This document shows positions 6-62,693 of a DNA stretch of 64,000 nucleotides, piece by piece; position 1 is the first letter of the stretch; each line of letters begins with the position of its first letter. This DNA is from Alphaproteobacteria bacterium (GTDB lineage: Bacteria; Pseudomonadota; Alphaproteobacteria; RF32; CAG-239): assembly GCA_017480745.1 (NCBI GenBank), contig JAFUSA010000009.1, forward strand, positions 1-64,000, written 5' to 3'. Position numbers and translations under genes: made by a program. The notes under the pieces are model-generated. The model saw only the letters and a program-made list of their open reading frames with translations. It did not search any database and was not told the origin of the DNA.

Positions 6-76
6 TAAAACCTCCTTTATATTATTTTGTTACTCAGTGGTCAGACTGTCTAACTCTTTATATAAAGGAGGTTTTA
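6..76. repeat. 17-bp perfect inverted repeat carrying two ribosome binding sites
   Basis: Positions 6-22 and 60-76 are exact reverse complements, and each arm carries a strong Shine-Dalgarno (AAAGGAGG on its own strand). On the minus strand the arm leads to an ATG at 1-3, so a gene very likely starts here and leaves the window to the left. On the plus strand the arm leads to ATG ATG TAA at 76-84, a two-codon reading frame, followed by a terminator hairpin. A transcript crossing both arms could fold and hide the Shine-Dalgarno. Function is not known. Confidence 0.6.
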
Positions 77-102
77 TGATGTAAAGCTGTAAGCTTTCCG
101 GA

Positions 103-130
103 ACCCCCAGACTATCTGGGGGTTTTCTTT
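103..130 (+). terminator. Rho-independent terminator
   Basis: The hairpin ACCCCCAGA / TCTGGGGGT is followed by TTTTCTTTTT. It would stop plus-strand transcripts coming from the inverted repeat at 6-76. Confidence 0.7.
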
Positions 131-3688: not shown

Positions 3689-4369
3689 TTAACAACCACC
3701 CTTAGATATAGAACAATTGGTTAATTTTGTACTCCAAAAAGTGCTTAACGGATCAACGTCAATATATAAATCAAAAAACATTGTTGTTACTTCCGGAGTC
3801 GTGCAGATTGTAACAGCTTCATCCAAGCTGAGCGGAGATTTTATACAATACTCGGTATCTGTTCCGTTTGGCGACACACATACTATTGTATTAGAAGCAA
3901 CATTACTCCAATCTTGTGAAGCAAGCTCAATGCACGCTTCTACAGGTATCTCAACTAACTGCATTCTTATAGCATCACATCCACGTGAACAGCCAGTTAA
4001 TCCTTTTGAACGGTCATTATCACCTTTTTGAAAACTATCTACAAAAAAACCACCGCCCCAAATATTGTTCAAAGATGTTTTATTACTATTCCACATCTCA
4101 TCCGGCACCAATTTAGCCTTCTGAACAATTTTACGACCATCTGCACTAGATCCTAATCCAACATAATTTCCCTGCGAAACAAAAAACGAACGTATATTGC
4201 CGGCAATAAGAGTTATTTGTTCAATGGTTTTGTTAATACGATACTTCATCATGGCTTTGCTGTATCCGGCGATTCCACCAACCGACAGCACGCCAATGAT
4301 AGCTAAAACACCCAACATCTCTATCATTGAACGTCCGGATTCTATATTTTTTATTTCAAAGTTATTCAT
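3689..4369 (-). CDS. Type IVb pilin-like protein P1
   Basis: 226 residues. A short 12-residue leader ends at SG, followed by RSMIEMLGVLAIIG, the type IV prepilin helix with Glu at +5. Position +1 is Arg, where classical pilins have Phe, Met or Leu. After the helix come the family-wide block MKYRINKTIEQITLIAGNIR, the DEMW turn, 'EACIELASQDW', a C-terminal 'SPLSLDEAVTIC' motif and an FFDLYIDVDPLSTFW ending. The Cys of EAC and the Cys of AVTIC are conserved across paralogues and likely form a disulfide. It should be an exported, membrane-anchored pilin or pseudopilin. No assembly ATPase, platform protein or prepilin peptidase is in the window. Expression is presumably governed by leader A1. Confidence 0.85.
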   Translation of the reverse strand: MNNFEIKNIESGRSMIEMLGVLAIIGVLSVGGIAGYSKAMMKYRINKTIEQITLIAGNIRSFFVSQGNYVGLGSSADGRKIVQKAKLVPDEMWNSNKTSLNNIWGGGFFVDSFQKGDNDRSKGLTGCSRGCDAIRMQLVEIPVEACIELASQDWSNVASNTIVCVSPNGTDTEYCIKSPLSLDEAVTICTTPEVTTMFFDLYIDVDPLSTFWSTKLTNCSISKGGC

Positions 4370-4409: not shown

Positions 4410-4597
4410 GACCGCTAAATGGCGGTCGGGAGAGCTGAAAAATCATAGTGTTCGCATGATCTCCCCAACCTTTAGAACAACGTTCCTGAACATCCGTTAG
4501 GGACTCCCCAACCAAAGTCGGAGATATTATAATATCCAATCACGATGCCTAAGCACCGAAACACTAAGAGCTTTTCAGGGCTCCGAACCGAAGTTCT
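4410..4597 (-). ncRNA. Structured 5' leader, type A, copy A1
   Basis: Leader of pilin P1, starting at AGAAC-UUCG-GUUC (4597 downward) and ending with a GACCGC hairpin at 4410-4427, about 40 nt before the ATG. Helices seen: GAAC/GUUC capped by UUCG; CGGUG/CAUCG; CUCCGA with GGGGAG; a long stem UCCCUAAC/GUUGGGGA with inner GAAC/GUUC; AUCAU/AUGAU. The AUCAU hairpin loop (AACACUA) complements UAGUGUU upstream. See the type A findings for covariation across copies. Confidence 0.8.
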
Positions 4598-8570: not shown

Positions 8571-9209
8571 TTAATGAAACGCTAAATGTAATTCATTATT
8601 GTCAGCCGATGAGCAATATTCAATAGCTGTTTCCAGAGGCATACTTGCGGCACAATGCACATAATAATTAGATGGACCGACTGATGTTTTTTTAGTGATG
8701 CAATTGTTATGTCCTACTTTACCTCCGTATGCAACTCCGCTAAGATTACCTATTGCATATGCCGAAGTTGCGCTCCAATCGTGTGTTGCTAACTCAATAC
8801 ACGCTTCTTGGGGAAGACCGTAGAATATTATAATAAAATCATCTTTGGGCCCGCCATAAAAAAAAGCATAAATACTTGATAATCTTGCCGTTCCGCCATA
8901 CACATTTTCCAAACCGTTTCCTGCTTCATTCCACATCTCATCGGGTACAAGTTTGGCTTTTTGTATTATTTTTCTACCATCATTAGTAACTGAATCTAAT
9001 CCATCATAATTACCTTGACTGGCAAAAAATGTGCGCACATTACCGGCAACAAGGGTTATCTGTTCTATGGTTTTATTGATGCGATATTTAATCATGGCTT
9101 TGGAATATCCGGCAATACCACCAACAGATAGAACACCGATAATAGCTAAAACGCCAAGCATTTCTATCATCGAACGACCGTTTTGATTTTTAATTTCTAA
9201 ATTATTCAT
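8571..9209 (-). CDS. Type IVb pilin-like protein P2
   Basis: 212 residues with a 10-residue leader ending NG, then RSMIEMLGVLAIIG and the family block KYRINKTIEQITLVAGNVRTFFA. The middle and C-terminal domain is rewritten relative to the other copies, but the anchor motifs stay: DEMW, 'EACIELATHDW', 'SMPLETAIEYC' and the ending NNELHLAFH. This C-terminal ending groups it with P3 (NNGFSLLFH) rather than with the FYFDID group. Arg at +1 of the mature protein is unusual. It follows leader A2. Confidence 0.85.
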   Translation of the reverse strand: MNNLEIKNQNGRSMIEMLGVLAIIGVLSVGGIAGYSKAMIKYRINKTIEQITLVAGNVRTFFASQGNYDGLDSVTNDGRKIIQKAKLVPDEMWNEAGNGLENVYGGTARLSSIYAFFYGGPKDDFIIIFYGLPQEACIELATHDWSATSAYAIGNLSGVAYGGKVGHNNCITKKTSVGPSNYYVHCAASMPLETAIEYCSSADNNELHLAFH

Positions 9210-9250: not shown

Positions 9251-9443
9251 GACCGCCAAACGGCGGTCGGGAGAGCTGATAAATCATATTCTTGCAAATG
9301 ATTTCCCTAACCTTTAGGTAAAAACCCTGAACATCCGTTAGAGACTCCCCAACCATGTCGGAGATAAATCATACACTGTAACGATGTTAAAAATTAACAC
9401 CGACAAGAATAAGAGCCTATCAGAGCTCTCGAACCGAAGTTCT
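9251..9443 (-). ncRNA. Structured 5' leader, type A, copy A2
   Basis: Same architecture as A1, upstream of pilin P2. Copy-specific pairs: CGGUGUU/AACAUCG, UCUCUAAC/GUUAGGGA with inner AGG/CCU, and the long-range helix UAUUCUUG/CAAGAAUA into the AUCAU hairpin loop. It ends with GACCGCC-guuu-GGCGGUC (9251-9268), followed by AAAAAUUU rather than a U run. Confidence 0.8.
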
Positions 9444-12089: not shown

Positions 12090-12123
12090 TTGACTTTTAC
12101 TTTTTTTATGATATAGTGAAATC
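12090..12123 (+). promoter_or_regulatory. Promoter of leader A3
   Basis: -35 TTGACT (12090-12095), 16-nt spacer, -10 TATAGT (12112-12117), 6 nt to AGAAC at 12124. Confidence 0.75.
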
Positions 12124-12310
12124 AGAACTTCGGTTCGGAGCTGTAGAAAGCTCTTATTGTTCTCGGTGGGTTACACCGTTACTAAATGTAATAATATCTC
12201 CGATTTGGTCGGGGAGTCCGTAGCGAATGTTCAGAGTGTTGACTTAAAGGTTACGGAAATCATTTAGAACAATATGATTTTCTACCTCTCCCGACCGCTG
12301 TTTAGCGGTC
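12124..12310 (+). ncRNA. Structured 5' leader, type A, copy A3
   Basis: Upstream of pilin P3. Helices: GAAC-UUCG-GUUC; GAGC/GCUC; CGGUG/CACCG; CUCCGA/UCGGGGAG; UCCGUA/UACGGA with inner AGU/ACU; AAUCAU/AUGAUU; GACCGC/GCGGUC (12293-12310). The long-range helix pairs 12155-12163 (UAUUGUUCU) with 12266-12274 (AGAACAAUA), 9 bp without mismatch. The Shine-Dalgarno AAGGAGA lies about 30 nt downstream of the last hairpin. Confidence 0.85.
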
Positions 12311-12351
12311 AAAAATTTGTGCGTAAATCTTTAATTTAAGGAGATAGAATT

Positions 12352-18150: not shown

Positions 18151-19263
18151 ATGTGTCGTTTGTTAAAATACGTAGGCTTATGCCTGATATTACTTTTTGT
18201 CGCTCCGGTGCAGGCAAGGGTTAATATTGCGTTGGTGGCGCCAAAAGCGGGAGACTATCAAGAACAGGGTGAAGAGCTCATCAAGGGCGCAAAACGTGCG
18301 GTGGATGAGATTAATCAAAACGGTGGTTTGCTGGGGAAAAAAGTTAATCTGCTGACAGTTGATGATCAATGCAACAACAGTATAGCCATATCTACGGCGC
18401 AAATGTTGGCTATTCAAAAGGAAAATAAAATAAATTTGGTAATCGGACCGTATTGCGCCAATTCGTTTGACCAAGTAGCCGATGTTTATGCCAAAGCGCA
18501 AATATTTCAGATTATTCCGACAACCGTTAACTACACACAAGCCAAAACCATTAAAAAAGGGTTGGTAAAAATGTTGGGATATACCAACCAGCAAGCGCGA
18601 GATTTTTTTAATTTTTATAATCAAACCATGGCAGGACAATATGTGGCAGTTATCAGCAACCAAAATGATATAGAAAGTATGGATGAAGCCAACGCGATTA
18701 TACAGGAATTTTCTAAGCATGGCAAATCATCGCTGATTAAACTTTATACGTATGATATGACCGACAAAGATTATGATTCTTTGGCACGCAAAATCTTCAA
18801 AGAAGGTTATCAAATGGCTTTTTTGTTGGGTTCAGCCAAAAATATACGTAAAATGGCGCGCGCCTTAAAAGAAGACAGGGAAGAATTTATTTTATTTACT
18901 AACCGCTATTCGGCAACCAAAGAATATTTTGACTATTTGGGCAATTTGGCGGAAGGAACTTATTTAATGGAATTGCGCGGTCGTAACGATGATCCCGATT
19001 TTGCCGAAACATTGGTAAAATTGCGTTTAAGCGGTTTTGAAACCAACGGATTATCTCTTTACGGCTATTCGGCAGTTAAATTATGGGAAAGTTTAGCAAA
19101 GAAAGCCGGTTCGTTTGACTATAACAAGCTTTCGGCGGTGACAAACGACAAAAACATCCGGACCGAATTCGGTAACCGGATGTTTCATAACGGCGCTCCC
19201 AAAGTCAGCGAAAGCTACGCTATTTATCGTTACGCCGACGAGGACTTTGAAAAGGTTTATTAG
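18151..19263 (+). CDS. Periplasmic branched-chain amino-acid-type binding protein (LivJ-like)
   Basis: About 370 residues. A signal peptide ([20 protein letters not shown]) precedes a type 1 periplasmic-binding fold: [45 protein letters not shown] is the classic start, with [10 protein letters not shown] and a second lobe containing [13 protein letters not shown]. An upstream TTG at 18118 would add 11 residues; the ATG at 18151 gives a normal signal peptide. No permease or ATPase genes of an ABC importer are next to it, so it may serve as an orphan sensor or pair with transporter genes elsewhere. It converges with the next gene, overlapping by 4 nt. Confidence 0.8.
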
Positions 19264-19649
19264 TATCGCGTATATGGCATGGTAAAGCTTGGTGTGCTTG
19301 GGTATTTGTAATAATAAATCATTTCACGCTCGTTGATTTTATTAGCATCGATAGCCGCTTCCGGAATGCCCCATACAATAGAAATAGGCCAGGTGAGAAG
19401 ATTTAGGGCTCCATAAAGCCAATGCATACTATCTCCGCCATTACCGGCCGCTAAATAAAAATTACCAAACCCCGGCAATATGTTTAACACACCGGCGACG
19501 GCCGGACTTGCCGGACGATCAAAACTACCGGCATGGTCAACATCTATTCCGCGCATTTTTAATTGGTGTAAATCATCTTGTTCTTGTTTGGTTAAGTGTG
19601 TGCAAGCACTAATCGCAAATGCAAGTAAAACACAAAGAAGTTTTTTCAT
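19260..19649 (-). CDS. Small lipoprotein under a type A leader
   Basis: 129 residues. A lipoprotein signal peptide (MKKLLCVLLAFAISAC, lipobox ISAC) is followed by a charged stretch and two hydrophobic segments (PAVAGVLNILPGFGNFYLA, WLYGALNLLTWPISIVWG). It has no prepilin motif and is not part of the pilin family, yet it sits behind leader A4, a full type A copy with the same promoter spacing. This shows the leader marks a regulon rather than a pilin gene family. It is probably outer- or inner-membrane anchored. I do not recognise the family, and the GVLNILPG..NFYL segment recalls small membrane-associated domains only vaguely. Confidence 0.65.
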   Translation of the reverse strand: MKKLLCVLLAFAISACTHLTKQEQDDLHQLKMRGIDVDHAGSFDRPASPAVAGVLNILPGFGNFYLAAGNGGDSMHWLYGALNLLTWPISIVWGIPEAAIDANKINEREMIYYYKYPSTPSFTMPYTRY

Positions 19650-19691: not shown

Positions 19692-19878
19692 GACCGCCAG
19701 ACGGCGGTCGGGAGAGTTGAACAATCATATAAAGCTAAATGATTCGCGCAATCTTTGAGTAAAACCCTGAACATCCATCACGCGCTCCCCGGCCAAGTCG
19801 GAGATAAATCAATGTTTACTTAACGATGCAATGCACCGAGCTTTATAAGAGCTGTTCAAAGCCCCGAACCGAAGTTCT
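19692..19878 (-). ncRNA. Structured 5' leader, type A, copy A4 (lipoprotein gene)
   Basis: Leader of a non-pilin gene. Copy-specific pairs: CGGUGC/GCAUCG, CGCG/CGCG with inner GGG/CUC, and long-range UAUAAAGCU/AGCUUUAUA (9 bp) into the AUCAU hairpin loop. It ends with GACCGCC-guCU-GGCGGUC (19692-19709). Confidence 0.8.
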
Positions 19879-23724: not shown

Positions 23725-23911
23725 AGAACTTCGGTTCGGGGCCTTCATAAGCTCTTATTCATGTCGGCGTTTATACGTCGTTATTGATTGTGATAATATC
23801 TCCGATTTTGGTCGGGGAGCTTGCGGTGAATGTTCAGAGCTTTTAGCTTAAAGATTGCAAGGATCATTAGCATGAATATGATTTATGAACTCCCCCGCCG
23901 CCGTTTGGCGG
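23725..23911 (+). ncRNA. Structured 5' leader, type A, copy A5
   Basis: Upstream of pilin P5. Copy-specific pairs: CGGCG/CGUCG, CUUGC/GCAAG with inner AGC/GCU, and long-range UAUUCAUG/CAUGAAUA (8 bp). The terminal CCGCC-guuu-GGCGG (23898-23911) is followed within 5 nt by a U-rich run, closer to an intrinsic terminator than in A2 or A3. Confidence 0.8.
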
Positions 23912-23954: not shown

Positions 23955-24632
23955 ATGAAAAGATCAGAAATTAAAAATAATGATTCTCTCTCCCTCAAGG
24001 GGCGAGGGATCCAGTCCGGTCGTTCAATGATAGAAATGTTGGGTGTATTGGCTATAATCGGTGTGTTGTCGGTAGGTGGTATCGCAGGATATAGCAAGGC
24101 GATGACTAAATATCGCATCAATAAAACTATTGAACAGATAACCCTCATTGCCGGTAATGTGCGAACATTTTTTGCTCCGCAAGGAAATTATGCGGGATTA
24201 GATTCGTCTTCTGATACAGGAAAAGCAATTATCAAAAAAGCCAAACTTGTGCCGGATGAGATGTGGGAGGGTGAAAGAATTGTAGGTTCATTAGGGCATG
24301 TAAACTTGATGAAATTTACAAATAAATACTTTCAGATAGATATTAATGTAGTGGATGAAGAAGAATGTATTGAACTGGCAACAAAGGATTGGAGTAGTGT
24401 GGAATCTGGTATTTCTTCATTGGTTATATATGATTCTGGAGAAGCTGGTACAATTGATGATTATGAATCAGATGATGGTTCATTCGATAATTGCGATGGA
24501 AGTGTATGGGATGATACTATACTGGCTTGTACTAACGGAAAAATATTATCTTTTCCAATACCTTTAAACATAGCCGTTGATATTTGCGGCGATAATTATG
24601 AATCTCATGACTTTGTATTCATATTTAGATAA
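23955..24632 (+). CDS. Type IVb pilin-like protein P5 with extended leader peptide
   Basis: 225 residues. The prepilin leader is 21 residues long, about twice that of its paralogues, because of an inserted palindromic stretch (23991-24009) encoding SLSLKGRG. The rest is standard: SG-RSMIEMLGVLAIIG, KYRINKTIEQITLIAGNVRTFFA, DEMW, 'EECIELATKDW' (E replaces A before Cys), and 'FPIPLNIAVDIC'. The middle is short and acidic (DDYESDDGSFDN). It follows leader A5 and ends at a strong hairpin. Confidence 0.85.
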   Translation: MKRSEIKNNDSLSLKGRGIQSGRSMIEMLGVLAIIGVLSVGGIAGYSKAMTKYRINKTIEQITLIAGNVRTFFAPQGNYAGLDSSSDTGKAIIKKAKLVPDEMWEGERIVGSLGHVNLMKFTNKYFQIDINVVDEEECIELATKDWSSVESGISSLVIYDSGEAGTIDDYESDDGSFDNCDGSVWDDTILACTNGKILSFPIPLNIAVDICGDNYESHDFVFIFR

Positions 24633-37143: not shown

Positions 37144-37339
37144 AGAACTTCGGTTCGGAGCCTTAAACAGCTCTTGTTATCTGCGGTGTTATTGTAATAG
37201 CATCGTTAATTGATATGATAAATATCTCCGATTTTGGTTGGGGAGCGTTTTACGAATGTTCAGGGCGTTAGTCTAAAGGTAAAGCGGATCATTTCAGATA
37301 GCATGATTGTTTAACTCTCCCGACCGCCGTTTGGCGGTC
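37144..37339 (+). ncRNA. Structured 5' leader, type A, copy A6
   Basis: Upstream of pilin P6. Pairs: CGGUG/CAUCG with a longer loop than other copies, CGUUUU/AAAGCG with inner GGGC/GUCU (G-U pairs), and long-range UGUUAUCUG/CAGAUAGCA (9 bp, one G-U). Ends with GACCGCC-guuu-GGCGGUC (37322-37339), followed by AAAAAUUU. Confidence 0.8.
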
Positions 37340-37373: not shown

Positions 37374-37994
37374 ATGAAAAAATTAAAAAATCAAAACGGT
37401 CGTTCAATGATAGAAATGTTGGGCGTTTTAGCCATTATCGGCGTATTGTCTGTTGGCGGAATTGCAGGTTATTCCAAAGCGACGATGAAGTATAGGGTAA
37501 ACAAAACTATTGAGCAAATAACTTTAATTGCCGGTAATGTGCGCACATTTTTTGCAAACCAGAGAAATTATGATGGAGTGAATGATAGAAATATCATTAA
37601 AAAAGCAAAGCTTGTACCGGATGAAATGATTGAATATTGCACTACCGGAGGTTCTAATGAATGTCCAAAAGTAGGAGATATACATGGTATATCCAACGAA
37701 TTTGGACCAGTATCATTAACTTCAGCAGGTAAATCATCTTCAAGTGGAAAAGATGCTTTTTCTATTTCTTTTAGCGGTATGCCTGCAGAAGCTTGTATTG
37801 AGATTTGTTCTCACGATTGGAGAGATGTTAATTTAGGAGCAATGGAAATTTATATTGGTGGTGGACAAGTTTCTGTTAAAAAAATACCTATGGATGTAGA
37901 TGCTGCTGTAAATTTTTGTTTAGATAGAGAACCTATTACTCTTTATTTTGATATAGACGTTAACTCAACCTATTGGAGCAGTAAATTTAACTAA
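37374..37994 (+). CDS. Type IVb pilin-like protein P6
   Basis: 206 residues, the shortest copy. Leader of 8 residues ends NG, then RSMIEMLGVLAIIG; the family KAM block reads KATMKYRVNKTIEQ. It has DEMI, 'AEACIEICSHDW', 'IPMDVDAAVNFC' and the ending YFDIDVNSTYW, which groups it with P7, P8 and P9. A second cysteine near IEIC and an unusual CTTGGSNECPKVG loop suggest extra disulfides. Tail-to-tail with P7, which is on the other strand behind a type B leader. Confidence 0.85.
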   Translation: MKKLKNQNGRSMIEMLGVLAIIGVLSVGGIAGYSKATMKYRVNKTIEQITLIAGNVRTFFANQRNYDGVNDRNIIKKAKLVPDEMIEYCTTGGSNECPKVGDIHGISNEFGPVSLTSAGKSSSSGKDAFSISFSGMPAEACIEICSHDWRDVNLGAMEIYIGGGQVSVKKIPMDVDAAVNFCLDREPITLYFDIDVNSTYWSSKFN

Positions 37995-38096: not shown

Positions 38097-38756
38097 TTAG
38101 CTTGGATTTAACTTGTTCCTCCAATATGTAGAATTAGTATCTATATCAAAATAGAAATTAAGAGTAAAATATTTGTTGCACAGATTAACGGCTGTTTCTA
38201 CATCAACAGGTATTTTTTTATAAACCTCTTGTTCATTACTGTTAACAATCATTATTGCATCTACATTAGCATTAGTCCAATCTTGACTAATTAATTCTAT
38301 ACATGCTTCGTCTGGTATTCCTCCTTCTAAATTACTTCCATTAAAAGACATGCTAAATGCTTTATTATCGCCATCTGTTGCTTTTGTAAATGAATAAACA
38401 CTAATTGACTCACCAAAGGCACCAGTGATATTGTCGATCATCTTACCACATGTTTCATGATGTGATGTTGTAAGCATTTCATCAGGTATTAGTTTAGCCT
38501 TTGTTATAATACAATTTATGGCATCATCAGTAGAAGTTGAATCTAAACCAGCGTAACTTCTTTGCGGTGCAAAAAATGCTCTTACATTACCGGCAATTAA
38601 AGTTATTTGCTCAATAGTTTTATTTATGCGATATTTCATCATCGCTTTTGAATATCCGGCTATACCACCGACAGAGAGAACGCCTATTATGGCCAAAACG
38701 CCTAACATCTCAATCATTGAACGACCGGCTTCATTTTTATAATCAAAGTTTTTCAT
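38097..38756 (-). CDS. Type IVb pilin-like protein P7 (under a type B leader)
   Basis: 219 residues. Leader of about 11 residues ends AG, then RSMIEMLGVLAIIG and KYRINKTIEQITLIAGNVRAFFA. Then DEML, 'DEACIELISQDW', 'IPVDVETAVNLC' and YFDIDTNSTYW. The protein clearly belongs with P6, P8 and P9, yet it is the only pilin behind the type B leader, showing that leader and gene can be exchanged. Three cysteines lie outside the EAC/NLC pair (CIITKAK, TCGKM). Confidence 0.85.
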   Translation of the reverse strand: MKNFDYKNEAGRSMIEMLGVLAIIGVLSVGGIAGYSKAMMKYRINKTIEQITLIAGNVRAFFAPQRSYAGLDSTSTDDAINCIITKAKLIPDEMLTTSHHETCGKMIDNITGAFGESISVYSFTKATDGDNKAFSMSFNGSNLEGGIPDEACIELISQDWTNANVDAIMIVNSNEQEVYKKIPVDVETAVNLCNKYFTLNFYFDIDTNSTYWRNKLNPS

Positions 38757-38800: not shown

Positions 38801-38973
38801 CCACCTCTATTGAGGCGGCTGGAAGCTCATAACTACCATAAACAATAGCGTTACATATTTATTATTTTTACATAACTTATTTTGCAACCTTCCAACCATA
38901 AAGTCGGAACTATTTAACGTCATTAAAGACGGTTTATGAGAGGCTATGAGACCTCAGACAAGTTACCTCATCT
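38801..38973 (-). ncRNA. Structured 5' leader, type B, copy B1
   Basis: Starts AGAUGAGGUAACUU (38973 downward) and ends with the hairpin CCGCCUC/GAGGUGG (38801-38818). Helices: GAGGU/(G)CCUC near the 5' end, with loop CUCAUA that can pair with UAUGAG close to the 3' end; CGUC/GACG; and GGUUGGAAG with CUUCCAGCC just before the last hairpin. The 5' GAGGU can also pair with the GCCUC arm of the last hairpin. Confidence 0.75.
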
Positions 38974-43735: not shown

Positions 43736-44566
43736 ATGCAGTTACCTACTTTGCGAGAGACGGTTGAAAAATACGAATTGCTGGCTAAAAAATCTTTAGG
43801 GCAAAATTTTTTACTGGATATGAATATTACCGAAAAAATAATCCGTCAATCACTAAGTATACAGAATTTAGAAAGTTTTGCCGGAACCTATGTTTATGAG
43901 GTTGGTCCGGGACCGGGAGGATTAACGCGCGCTATTTTAAAAAATAATCCGCAACGCTTGACGGTAATAGAAATGGATTCGCGCTGTATAGATATAATGA
44001 ATGATATAAAAAATGTCGTAGGCGAGCAGTTGCAAATAATAGAAGGTGATGCTCTTAAATATAATTTTGCCGCCGAAAATGTTGCACCAAAACATATTGT
44101 AAGCAATTTACCATACAATATATCTGTTCCTCTTTTGGTTGGATGGCTCAAAAATATGGCGCAATACAGCAGTTTAACATTGATGTTTCAAAAAGAAGTT
44201 GCCGAACGCATCATAGCCGAAACTAATAACAAAAGTTACGGCAGAATATCGGTTTTAGCACAGTTAACTTGCCATATAAAAGTATTGATGAATTTAAATC
44301 CTAATTGTTTTGTTCCGGCACCGAAAATATGGTCAACCGTATTGTTATTCCAACCGCGAGAGATAATTCCTTCGGCGGAAATATTACAAAAAGTTTCAAA
44401 CCTGACGGAATTAGCATTCGGTCAGCGCCGTAAAATGATTCGCCAAAGTTTAAAATCAATCAAAAATTTAGCGGAAATTTGCTCCGGTTTGAATATTCCA
44501 CTAACCGCACGTGCGGAAAATCTATCACCGGAGCAATATTTAGAGTTAGCCAAAACAATTATTTAA
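43736..44566 (+). CDS. rsmA: 16S rRNA dimethyladenosine transferase
   Basis: About 276 residues from the ATG at 43736. SAM motif YEVGPGPGGLTRAIL, FSNLPYNISVPLL-type substrate motif (IVSNLPYNISVPLL) and a C-terminal KMIRQSLK box identify KsgA, which dimethylates two adenosines near the 3' end of 16S rRNA. The frame extends 6 codons upstream inside surA. Its stop overlaps by 4 nt the stop of the convergent pilin P8, with no terminator between. Confidence 0.9.
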   Translation: MQLPTLRETVEKYELLAKKSLGQNFLLDMNITEKIIRQSLSIQNLESFAGTYVYEVGPGPGGLTRAILKNNPQRLTVIEMDSRCIDIMNDIKNVVGEQLQIIEGDALKYNFAAENVAPKHIVSNLPYNISVPLLVGWLKNMAQYSSLTLMFQKEVAERIIAETNNKSYGRISVLAQLTCHIKVLMNLNPNCFVPAPKIWSTVLLFQPREIIPSAEILQKVSNLTELAFGQRRKMIRQSLKSIKNLAEICSGLNIPLTARAENLSPEQYLELAKTII

Positions 44567-45216
44567 ATGCCGCTACCTTTATAAATATTATTAGATGGAT
44601 CTATATCAAAATAAAAACGTATAGTATCTTCAAAAAATCGTCCGCTACATGCTGAGATGGCGTCATTTATATCAACCGGAGTAGATAAATAACGTATCTC
44701 ATGAGTATTTGAATTATCAATATAAATAAGTTGTGCTCCAATATTTGACCAATCTTGTGAAACTATTTCAATACAAGCTTCATCAGGTATATTTCCGGCA
44801 GTATTTTGTGTATAACCAAATTGGATATAAAATCCTTTTTTATCATCTTTGTAATTTTTATCAACTGCTTTTAATGTTACACCTTCACCAAATGCACCTT
44901 GTAAAATATTTTCAAAACCATAATGGGATTTAATCCACATTTCATCAGGCACAAGCTTTGCTTTCTTAATAATAATTGGACTATCAGAGGAGCAACCTAT
45001 TCCTGTTGATAATCCTTTATAATTACCTTGATTGGCGAAAAATGTGCGCACATTACCGGCAATGAGAGTTATTTGTTCAATAGTTTTATTAATGCGATAT
45101 TTCATCATGGCTTTGGAATATCCGGCGATTCCGCCAACACTCAAAACACCGATTATTGCTAATACGCCCAACATTTCTATCATTGAGCGTCCGTTTTGAT
45201 TTTTTAATTTTTTCAT
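44563..45216 (-). CDS. Type IVb pilin-like protein P8
   Basis: 217 residues. Leader of 8 residues ends NG, then RSMIEMLGVLAIIG and KYRINKTIEQITLIAGNVRTFFA. It has DEMW, 'DEACIEIVSQDW', 'TPVDINDAISAC' and RFYFDIDPSNN. Groups with P6, P7 and P9. Extra Cys in TGIGCSSDS. It converges with rsmA, overlapping its end by 4 nt. Its leader A7 begins immediately after the rpoC terminator. Confidence 0.85.
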   Translation of the reverse strand: MKKLKNQNGRSMIEMLGVLAIIGVLSVGGIAGYSKAMMKYRINKTIEQITLIAGNVRTFFANQGNYKGLSTGIGCSSDSPIIIKKAKLVPDEMWIKSHYGFENILQGAFGEGVTLKAVDKNYKDDKKGFYIQFGYTQNTAGNIPDEACIEIVSQDWSNIGAQLIYIDNSNTHEIRYLSTPVDINDAISACSGRFFEDTIRFYFDIDPSNNIYKGSGI

Positions 45217-45255: not shown

Positions 45256-45437
45256 CCGCCAAACGGCGGCAGGGGAGTTAACAAATCATAGCGTTTAATG
45301 ATCACCACAATCTTTAAGCTAAAAGCTCTGAACATCCATTGCAGTCTCCCCGACCCAATCGGAGACATCATCATATTTATTAACGATGCTAAGCACCGAA
45401 ACGCTAAGAGCTTGTTAAGGCCCCGAACCGAAGTTCT
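45256..45437 (-). ncRNA. Structured 5' leader, type A, copy A7
   Basis: Upstream of pilin P8. Pairs: CGGUGC/GCAUCG, ACUGCAAU/AUUGUGGU with inner AGC/GCU, and long-range UAGCGUUU/AAACGCUA (8 bp). The terminal hairpin CCGCC-guuu-GGCGG (45256-45269) is followed directly by UUUUUU, a canonical terminator. Confidence 0.8.
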
Positions 45438-56610: not shown

Positions 56611-57948
56611 ATGGACAATAAAACAATATATGCTCTTTCAACTTTGTTTGGTAAGTCAGGAATAGCTGTAATTCGTGTATCCGGAAAAAATGCGTTTGCG
56701 GTTATTGAAAAGATGACGGAGATTGATGCGGCAAATTTAATAAGTCGCAAAATGTATTTTACTCAAATTTTTGATGCTGTTTCACGTGAAACATTAGATA
56801 ATGCACTGGTGGTTGCTTTTAAAAATCCGCAGTCATTTACCGGAGAAGATACGGTGGAGATTAATTGTCATGGCTCTAAGGCGGTAATTCGCAGTGTGCT
56901 TGCTTCGCTTGCCAAATTGCCGGATTTTCGCTTGGCAGAAGCCGGTGAGTTTTCGCGCCGTGCTTTTTATAACGGTAAAATGGATTTAACCAAAGCCGAG
57001 GGTTTGGCCGACTTAATTGATGCTGAAACAGCATTGCAGCGCAAAGTTGCTTTGCAACAAATGGGTGGAACATTGCTCAATTTATATGAAAATTGGCGTG
57101 AGCGGTTGCTTTCTACTCTTTCATATATTGAAGCATATATTGATTTTCCGGAAGAAAATATTCCGCACAACACAGTGGTGAAAATTGAAAACAGTGTATT
57201 TAAAATAATGGATGAGATTGAACGTCATATTACGGATAACAATATTGAAGAGCGGTTGCGAGATGGGTTTAGAGTGGTTATTGCCGGAGAGCCTAATGCC
57301 GGTAAATCAAGCTTGATTAATGCTATTGTTAAACGCAATGTAGCGATTGTTTCTGATGTTGCCGGCACCACCAGAGATGTTATTGATGCGTATGTTGATT
57401 TGCGCGGTTTTCCGGTAGTGTTTTCTGATACTGCCGGTTTGCGTGACGGTGGAGATGAAGTTGAAAGAATTGGTATTGAGTTAGCCAAAGAAAAAATTAT
57501 GTCCGCCGATTTCAAAATTTTTATTTTTGATGCCAAAAAAGGTTGTCCGCATGGTATAACACCGTATTTAAATGACAATGAATATTTATTGGTGGCTAAT
57601 AAATCAGATACTCTTTCAGAAGATGAAATAGAAGAGCTTAGCCACTATGATTATGTTTTGGCTTCTGCCAAAAAGAATGTTAACATCGATATTATTACTG
57701 ATAAAATATACGAGCATTTCAAAGAGTTATATGTGCAAGGTTCATCGGGTGTTATAACTCGTCAACGCTATAAAGAAGCATTGCAGGAATGTGTGGAAAA
57801 TTTGCAACGTTTTAATTTGCGTAAAGAAATAGAGTTAGCGGCAGAGGATATTCGTTTGGCTTGTCGTGCCATTGGTAAAATAACCGGCAAGGTGGAAGTA
57901 AACGAAGTTTTGGATAAAATTTTCAGTAACTTTTGTATTGGTAAATAG
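56611..57948 (+). CDS. mnmE: tRNA uridine-5-carboxymethylaminomethyl modification GTPase MnmE
   Basis: 445 residues. N-terminal formyl-THF domain (MDNKTIYALSTLFGKSGIAVIRVSG), G domain with P-loop IAGEPNAGKSSL, DTAG and NKSD, and the C-terminal CIGK motif (NFCIGK) with its essential Cys. With MnmG it makes cmnm5U at tRNA wobble U34. It contains parS site 1 (56778-56793). Confidence 0.95.
   Translation: MDNKTIYALSTLFGKSGIAVIRVSGKNAFAVIEKMTEIDAANLISRKMYFTQIFDAVSRETLDNALVVAFKNPQSFTGEDTVEINCHGSKAVIRSVLASLAKLPDFRLAEAGEFSRRAFYNGKMDLTKAEGLADLIDAETALQRKVALQQMGGTLLNLYENWRERLLSTLSYIEAYIDFPEENIPHNTVVKIENSVFKIMDEIERHITDNNIEERLRDGFRVVIAGEPNAGKSSLINAIVKRNVAIVSDVAGTTRDVIDAYVDLRGFPVVFSDTAGLRDGGDEVERIGIELAKEKIMSADFKIFIFDAKKGCPHGITPYLNDNEYLLVANKSDTLSEDEIEELSHYDYVLASAKKNVNIDIITDKIYEHFKELYVQGSSGVITRQRYKEALQECVENLQRFNLRKEIELAAEDIRLACRAIGKITGKVEVNEVLDKIFSNFCIGK
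56778..56793. other. parS site 1, inside mnmE
   Basis: Perfect palindrome TGTTTCACGTGAAACA, the bacterial ParB centromere. In frame it encodes part of VSRET (DAVSRETLDN). Confidence 0.9.
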
Positions 57949-61739: not shown

Positions 61740-61924
61740 AGAACTTCGGTTCGGGGCCTTAAACAGCTCTTACCTTAGTCGGTGCTTTTGCATCGTTGTT
61801 GAATATGATAAATATCTCCGATTTGGTCGGGGAGCTCGTAGTGGATGTTCAGAGCTGTTAGCTTAAAGATTATGAGGATCGTTCTAAGGTATGATTGTTT
61901 AACTCCCCTGCCGCCGTTTGGCGG
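61740..61924 (+). ncRNA. Structured 5' leader, type A, copy A8
   Basis: Upstream of pilin P9. Pairs: CGGUGC/GCAUCG, CUCGUA/UAUGAG with inner AGC/GCU, and long-range UACCUUAG (61771-61778) with CUAAGGUA (61884-61891), 8 bp perfect. The final hairpin CCGCC-guuu-GGCGG is followed by UUUUUU (61925-61930), a canonical terminator about 35 nt before the ATG. Confidence 0.85.
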
Positions 61925-61964: not shown

Positions 61965-62693
61965 ATGATAAACTTAAAGAATCAAAACGGGCGCTCAATG
62001 ATAGAGATGCTTGGCGTGTTAGCCATTATTGGTGTTTTGTCGGTTGGCGGAATCGCCGGATATTCAAAAGCTATGATGAAATACAGAGTTAATAAAACCA
62101 TTGAACAAATAACACTAATAGCCGGAAATATACGAGCATTCTTCGGACCGCAGAAGAATTATGTTGGGGTGTTGTGTGGTTTTACTTGCGGTACCGCTTG
62201 CTATGGGAGTGATGGCGGTGTTGGTAGCAACGGCTCTCCTACCTATGCTGAAAATGGCTGTCCGATAATTAAAAAAGCCAAGATATTACCCGATGAAATG
62301 CTTACTGTTAATGTGGATGGTAAAATTACCGCTATTAGCAATCCCTTTGGTATTTCTGTTCGGTTAGATTCATCGAATAAAGCACAAAGCAGTGGTAGTG
62401 ATAATCAAGCGTTTAGTATTACGTACTATATAAATAACGAAGAAGCTTGTATAGAATTGGTCACACATGATTGGACAGCAGCTAATGCAAGAATCATAAT
62501 GTTTGGAAATGTTGCAGGCCCAGGAGATTCTAGTAAAAAATATTTTACGCTACCAATGGATATTGATACAGCTGTTGAAAGATGTTCAACACTTTTTGCA
62601 AGGAGTAAACGATATGGAGGTAATTCTATAAGTCTTAATTTCTATTTCGACATTGACGGCAATTCTACCTATTGGCAAAATCAATTAAACTAA
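61965..62693 (+). CDS. Type IVb pilin-like protein P9
   Basis: 242 residues, the longest short-leader copy. Leader of 8 residues ends NG, then RSMIEMLGVLAIIG and KYRVNKTIEQITLIAGNIRAFF. A cysteine-rich insertion (LCGFTCGTACYGSDGGVGSNG) follows the helix, then DEML, 'EEACIELVTHDW', 'LPMDIDTAVERC' and FYFDIDGNSTYW. Groups with P6-P8. The extra Cys cluster may form a second disulfide loop. It lies between the PHP and rsmG genes in the mnmE-parA block. Confidence 0.85.
   Translation: MINLKNQNGRSMIEMLGVLAIIGVLSVGGIAGYSKAMMKYRVNKTIEQITLIAGNIRAFFGPQKNYVGVLCGFTCGTACYGSDGGVGSNGSPTYAENGCPIIKKAKILPDEMLTVNVDGKITAISNPFGISVRLDSSNKAQSSGSDNQAFSITYYINNEEACIELVTHDWTAANARIIMFGNVAGPGDSSKKYFTLPMDIDTAVERCSTLFARSKRYGGNSISLNFYFDIDGNSTYWQNQLN

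Follow-up and report, generated by a model that had tools for sequence, protein, structure and literature searches.

Probable C4-type antisense RNA leaders with their own pairing words precede pilin-like genes in an alphaproteobacterial genome

C4 is the textbook antisense immunity switch of phages P1 and P7. In phage P1 it represses translation through a second target, a2/b2, at the downstream ribosome-binding site (RBS). A C4-like prophage RNA, isrK (RF01394), comes from a single prophage locus. The models of C4 and c4-a1b1 come from Weinberg et al. 2010 (PMC2864571), and GGW is the RNase P cleavage motif reported for the P1 and P7 RNAs (PMC5320573). The latter paper, citing Citron & Schuster 1990, states that 4 differing nucleotides in this region of P1 and P7 suffice to abolish cross-reaction. 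Bacterial RNAs of this type include 21 C4-like Group 1 small RNAs (sRNAs) of A. baumannii AB5075, in which a specificity loop of 7-11 nt varies and which seem to undergo RNase P-like processing at GGW (PMC5320573). They also include sRNA-Xcc1 (RF02221), which lies upstream of symE in Xanthomonas integron cassettes (PMC12444791). The literature that we searched, a selection outside which most subscription papers fell, held no report of C4-type leaders in Alphaproteobacteria.

The DNA analysed here, called the window, is a stretch of 64,000 nucleotides from an Alphaproteobacteria bacterium (GTDB RF32; CAG-239). The original prediction described eight "type A" leaders in it, A1 to A8, in which the 7-9 nt before a CGGUG stem pair with the loop of a hairpin about 110 nt downstream, with a different sequence in every copy. 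All eight segment pairs were located, 110-120 nt apart and truly complementary, and those of A3 lie exactly at 12155-12163 and 12266-12274. Seven of the eight leaders stand directly upstream of pilin-like genes. On the minus strand these are A1 (4428-4584; gene 3689-4369), A2 (9269-9429; gene 8571-9209) and A7 (45271-45424; gene 44563-45216), and on the plus strand A5 (23738-23896; gene 23955-24632), A6 (37157-37321; gene 37374-37994), A8 (61753-61909; gene 61965-62693) and A3, whose gene at 12352-13038 matches Pfam PilS and Bundlin and has a Shine-Dalgarno sequence, GGAG, at 12340-12343. The exception is A4 (19710-19865, minus strand), which precedes a putative lipoprotein gene (19260-19649, minus strand).

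Leader A3, on the plus strand, serves to describe the parts. Directly upstream is a promoter-like arrangement, also found upstream of nearly all copies, with a -35 TTGACT (12090-12095), a 16-nt spacer and a -10 TATAGT (12112-12117). A hairpin, GAAC-UUCG-GUUC (12125-12136), stands ahead of the target region. Then come a1 (GUAGAAA, 12143-12149), which pairs with a′ (UUUCUAC, 12279-12285) in helix P1, and b1 (UAUUGUUCU, 12155-12163), the 5′ segment of the original prediction, which pairs with b′ (AGAACAAUA, 12266-12274), its 3′ segment, in helix P2. The P3 hairpin CGGUG...CACCG (12164-12178) follows, and after it strand A (UAUCUCCGA, 12195-12203), which folding and co-change pair with strand B (GGUCGGGGAG, 12207-12216) in hairpin P4. 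Strand B is also the 5′ strand of a C4-like outer stem, whose 3′ strand is strand C (CUCUCCCGACC, 12286-12296). Inside that stem are the P5/P6 hairpin (12217-12257), with a conserved internal loop AAUGUUCAG / UAAAG, and the Y/Z hairpin (12259-12278), in which AUCA (12259-12262) and UGAU (12275-12278) enclose the antisense word b′. An intrinsic-terminator-like hairpin, GACCGCU-GUUU-AGCGGUC followed by AAAAAUUUG (12293-12310), overlaps strand C with its 5′ arm.

This layout is that of phage P1/P7 C4 (RF01695, RF03163), with the order hairpin, a1, b1 (8-9 nt), spacer and C4-like RNA, and with the hairpin at the same place before a1. The annotated phage P1 sequence (AF234172) has an a1 of 7 nt, a b1 of 8 nt and then the 77-nt C4 RNA. 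The three stems of C4 (outer stem, small hairpin and hairpin with the antisense loop) are all present, with GGU at the start of the outer stem and an RCC sequence after it. Upstream a1 and b1 are complementary to a′ and b′ in the same order and at similar sizes. As in the phage RNA, b′ sits in the loop of a short-stem hairpin, a′ is single-stranded (in the C4 fold, between that hairpin and the outer stem), and the same transcript continues from the RNA into a gene. Since the P1 layout and the Rfam placements agree, we take the 5′ strand of P1 as a1, the 5′ strand of P2 as b1 and the RNA from 12207 onward as C4-like. There are differences as well. The leaders precede chromosomal pilin and surface genes rather than a phage antirepressor, and this one genome holds more than 100 of them, about 85 of type A and at least 25 of a second family, type B. 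Their inner hairpin is larger and carries the conserved internal loop, their Rfam scores stay below gathering, and instead of a detectable a2/b2 at the RBS they have a terminator that overlaps the outer stem. When we searched for such a second target at the RBS or in the gene, own pairs did no better than permuted ones in this genome (p 0.65-0.71) or in relatives (p at least 0.14), and only isolated a2-like stretches turned up (loci L113, L122 and L127).

Neither C4 nor c4-a1b1 was matched at gathering score in loci of the window's own lineage, nor did any known riboswitch or other Rfam family cover the leaders at gathering; for riboswitches this also held at E up to 10. A permissive Rfam scan of distant relatives placed c4-a1b1 over the 5′ part of one locus (L132, 29.5 bits, E 6e-4, its best match to that model and still sub-threshold) and, as its best C4 match, C4 over the 3′ part of another (L133, 23.5 bits, sub-threshold). 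isrK matched weakly at L132 (19.1 bits, E 3.1), and sRNA-Xcc1 fell at the same position in five class loci, again sub-threshold. The sRNA-Xcc1 model, run on Alphaproteobacteria, hit 37 of 289 genomes at E up to 1e-3 and 5 of 289 over its curated cut-off. Its matches included the RNA that our own covariance model, R1 (built from 37 leader copies), found in genome G171, as well as three places in the genome studied here. In this genome several type B copies scored 25.7-34.7 bits against a cut-off of 53, and type A copies gave no match. Most of the 12 sRNA-Xcc1 loci that we inspected have a1 and b1 upstream. The sRNA-Xcc1 RNA shares the C4-like fold and the leader-like position, but it is described as a trans-acting sRNA, and the portions of its descriptions that we saw mention no upstream a1/b1 pairing. 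Direct homology by model match to phage P1 C4 was dropped as an argument, because R1 and a second model, R2, both missed that RNA. Judged by architecture, by the intermediate Rfam matches and by sRNA-Xcc1, the leader belongs to the C4-type antisense RNA systems and is related to phage P1 C4. Another class member (G245), with 13 sRNA-Xcc1 matches listed, also has an amplified C4-like family.

Searched against the 1.6-Mb genome, R1 marked 91 places, 83 of them full-length and above 119 bits. Among the 85 type A copies in this genome, 78 precede a pilin-like gene, and the genome has at least 150 such genes. The nine b1/b′ pairs are complete in 73 copies, and at least eight of the nine form in 81. 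To gauge chance, we took the longest helix between the 5′ segment of copy i and the 3′ segment of copy j, with identical search freedom for own and mismatched pairs. A helix of 7 bp or more was found for the own pair in 81 of 85 copies, whereas 15.9% of mismatched pairs had one, so the claim that complementarity by chance is very unlikely stands. The same held for homologues from other genomes (60 of 61, against 18.3% of mismatched pairs), and non-complementary homologues, for which we looked specifically, are rare (L108). The words themselves are almost all different, with 80 distinct b words among the 81 copies that form at least eight of nine pairs. The only shared word belongs to a truncated leader without an intact gene (L177). 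This own pairing "password" in almost every intact copy suggests a separate RNA switch for each gene.

Covariation bears the helix out. In an alignment of 37 copies (alignment A2, distinct from leader A2), eight of the nine b1/b′ pairs show double-sided changes. A second long-range helix, a1/a′, lies just outside b1/b′ and covaries similarly strongly (99.6% paired, 6 of 7 pairs double-changed); own-versus-cross comparison supports it too. Double changes were also seen in 5 of 6 pairs of P3 and all 8 of P5. The structure as a whole was 98.1% paired, with 358 double-changed cells, and none of 500 shuffles reached the observed values.

Exceptions to the helix were few: in this genome L028, L166, L170 and L176, in another L108, and in the type B family L204. 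One of them, L028, is chimeric. Apart from a single base its 5′ half equals that of window copy A7, whereas its 3′ half has another origin; the b helix is disrupted, and the downstream gene is broken too, having lost its start codon. In L170 and L204 the pairing is broken, yet the downstream genes seem intact, which counts against the explanation that we favor below. The type B copy L204 is chimeric as well, with unmatched halves and a gene still present.

The original prediction also held that private words could keep paralogous leaders from pairing in trans. Separation as such fits what is known of C4 and fits predicted duplex energies, in which 80 of 81 targets had their own partner as the best among 81, by a median margin of 7.1 kcal/mol. 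Near-collisions between b words were neither in excess nor lacking relative to independent draws, and we therefore rejected the idea that selection keeps the words dissimilar to each other. In an initial comparison b1/b′ seemed to diverge faster than the rest of the leader. That idea was dropped when every other leader helix proved likewise uncoupled from overall similarity, with P5 about as divergent. Since the words behave as independent draws and the other helices are equally uncoupled, we claim no special diversification of b1/b′.

Type B is a second, diverged leader family that precedes other pilin genes and follows the same a/b and A/B/C logic. The window's copy (38817-38950, minus strand; pilin-like gene 38097-38756, minus strand) has a1 CUCAUAGC with a′ GUUAUGAG, b1 UCAUAAAC with b′ GUUUAUGG, and an outer stem GGUUGGAAG/CUUCCAGCC. 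The family, to which loci L179-L208 also belong, has at least 40 places that match at the DNA level. Both helices are kept in 25 of 26 usable copies, among which there are 23 distinct b words.

Folding predictions and covariation together show two conserved folds. Predicted structures of full-length leaders contained b1/b′ in 76 of 80 copies from this genome and in 52 of 53 from relatives. The 3′ piece alone was predicted to adopt the C4 fold with the word exposed in the hairpin loop in 79 of 80 own and 53 of 53 related copies. The closed precursor, with a1b1 on b′a′ and B on A in P4, is one conserved fold, in which strand C also pairs with GGAG at 12137-12140. The C4 fold, with B on C and both b′ and a′ exposed, is the second, mutually exclusive with the first. 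A and C are each complementary to strand B; the three strands change together in L074 and L095, and type B leaders show A-B plus B-C co-change. An alignment of the 3′ pieces of 62 loci adds covariation, with 95.9% pairing and six double-changed pairs in the outer stem, 98.4% and two in the Y/Z stem, and 8 of 8 in P5. The hairpin that the original prediction gave as partner is thus real and holds the partner strand within its loop, and its stem varies across the class as AUCA/UGAU, AUCG/CGAU, ACCG/CGGU, GCCG/CGGC and others.

The terminator points to what the folds may do. A terminator-like hairpin is present in 82 of 85 own copies. For 34 of 44 relatives from the order, the first base of its 5′ arm is also the last base of the core (position -1 from the core end). 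The hairpin begins within strand C, and about 4 nt are therefore contested between the complete outer stem and the complete terminator. Many terminators in this genome have a displaced U-run, which counts against a role in termination. The U-run of A3 (AAAAAUUUG) is weaker than in most relatives. Given that no private second target was found and that the terminator overlaps C, we propose attenuation. The reading that we consider probable is that each leader is a self-contained C4-type module that exerts locus-specific control of readthrough into the gene behind it. From these features we infer the switch function, processing by RNase P, action in trans, and the effect on the gene with its direction. 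RNase P would probably release the C4-like piece at the GGU of strand B, as it does for phage C4, and this GGW motif is present at 12207. The released piece could then act in trans on a1b1 in fresh transcripts from the same locus, a restriction expected because only own words match. The closed fold would most likely leave the terminator intact (OFF), and occupying or breaking a1b1/b′a′ would favor the C4 fold and lessen termination, so that the switch would set the frequency of readthrough by RNA polymerase into the gene behind it. Of all these steps, the direction of the feedback is the least secure.

A purely cis-acting attenuator or riboswitch would explain several of the same features. Here b1/b′ and a1/a′ would do no more than close a domain that responds to a protein or a small molecule, with the conserved AUGUUCAG/UAAAG loop as one possible sensor, and that governs the terminator. 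Nothing would act in trans, and the words would drift freely. The fixed position before genes, the terminator overlap, the strongly conserved internal loop, words that look like neutral draws and the missing second target all fit it. What a closed domain would not need is the complete, covarying C4-like fold that the 3′ piece keeps, and the matches of relatives to sRNA-Xcc1 and c4-a1b1 also speak against it. We regard this account as unlikely. The internal loop, UAUGUUCAG / UAAAG, is conserved in order relatives and type A copies and absent from phage P1 C4 and type B leaders, which makes P5/P6 lineage-specific. It is a candidate protein-binding site.

With the partner in a hairpin loop, the original prediction allowed either a pseudoknot or pairings that exclude each other. 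A true pseudoknot would hold b1/b′ and the Y/Z hairpin in one stable structure by kissing of the loop with the strand. Both helices covary, Y/Z immediately flanks b′, and by our own estimate 9 bp in a 12-nt loop are sterically possible. The consensus fold, on the other hand, places the Z strand against the 5′ side once b1/b′ has formed; B can pair with only one of A and C at a time, and two-state folding explains all helices. Mutual exclusion is the better reading since B pairs with A or C and since the whole leader and the 3′ piece fold differently. A stable pseudoknot is quite improbable; a transient loop-strand complex of b1 and b′ is possible.

Relatives let us follow single loci between genomes. 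Of 153 genomes from the order, R1 detected the leader in at least 126, and of 385 drawn from the class in at least 29; these are lower bounds because the searches used stricter filters and capped the number of candidates per genome. The original account of the leaders had included neither this distribution nor helix a1/a′, the C4 architecture or the competition with P4 and the terminator. The closest of the genomes compared are from uncultured Alphaproteobacteria, several of them from ruminant fore-stomachs. The lipoprotein gene of A4 is found behind this leader in at least four further genomes (L091, L097, L104 and L107; 57-69% protein identity), where the b1 words are TATCATCTT, TACATAACG (L097 and L104) and TATTGCACA, against TATAAAGCT for A4. 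Similarly, L076, L077 and L079 precede one gene (78-80% identity) with the words TACTCACAG, TACACATAG and TACGTATAG, each with its complement. Orthologous loci with differing words, each complementary, are what direct co-evolution looks like at the sequence level. A same-strand gene lies close downstream at nearly all loci. In relatives these genes encode lipoproteins, glycosyltransferases, large surface proteins, HTH regulators and one pilin-like protein (L120), with product types read from N-terminal sequences and family libraries applied to some. Pilin-like genes number 51-62 in G018, G019 and G020, 33 in G157, 18 in G028 and 0-7 in most other relatives. In sister species no leader was found beside rpoC in the flanks examined, where several contigs end.

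These loci also bear on whether the leaders could be stand-alone sRNAs with targets elsewhere and only incidental downstream genes, as proposed for A. baumannii Group 1 (PMC5320573). Group 1 resembles the leaders in its many paralogous C4-like RNAs with a variable loop, but no private upstream target, gene-by-gene leaders or pilin link is reported for it (PMC5320573). C4 homology and the canonical terminator right after the RNA in relatives would suit such sRNAs. Against them, a gene on the same strand almost always follows, a1b1 lies within the same transcript and changes together with a′b′, and the gene behind A4 keeps its leader across five genomes while the words differ, all of which makes the idea very improbable. 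A DNA-level recombination or cassette-mobility site, with the inverted repeats acting as single-stranded DNA, would suit the cassette-like amplification (more than 100 copies) and the recombination visible in L028 and L204, but it is scarcely credible given that G-U pairs are retained in the leader helices, that a promoter lies upstream and a terminator and RBS downstream, and that the RNA is homologous to C4.

On the module reading, Alphaproteobacteria appear to use C4-type modules widely as chromosomal leader elements, placed before surface and regulatory genes. In one small rumen-type genome they have been amplified to more than 100 copies, nearly all with distinct specificity words. They would form a natural library of orthogonal RNA regulators and offer a testable idea for how about 150 pilin paralogues could be controlled one by one. 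A bolder and rather doubtful proposal is that these orthogonal switches run in parallel, each holding the self-maintaining on/off state of one pilin or surface gene, with the words as addresses. If so, the cell surface could vary epigenetically without DNA rearrangement, and the words would prevent interference.

Two further features of the window lie apart from the leaders. The parS consensus TGTTTCACGTGAAACA occurs three times, at 56778, 60544 and 62800, which suggests a replication-origin region. At 14-124 (minus strand) Rfam's STnc490 (RF01405) matches with 65 bits, over gathering. This RNA is antisense to an IS200 transposase, and an IS200-like element may thus lie at the window's left edge.
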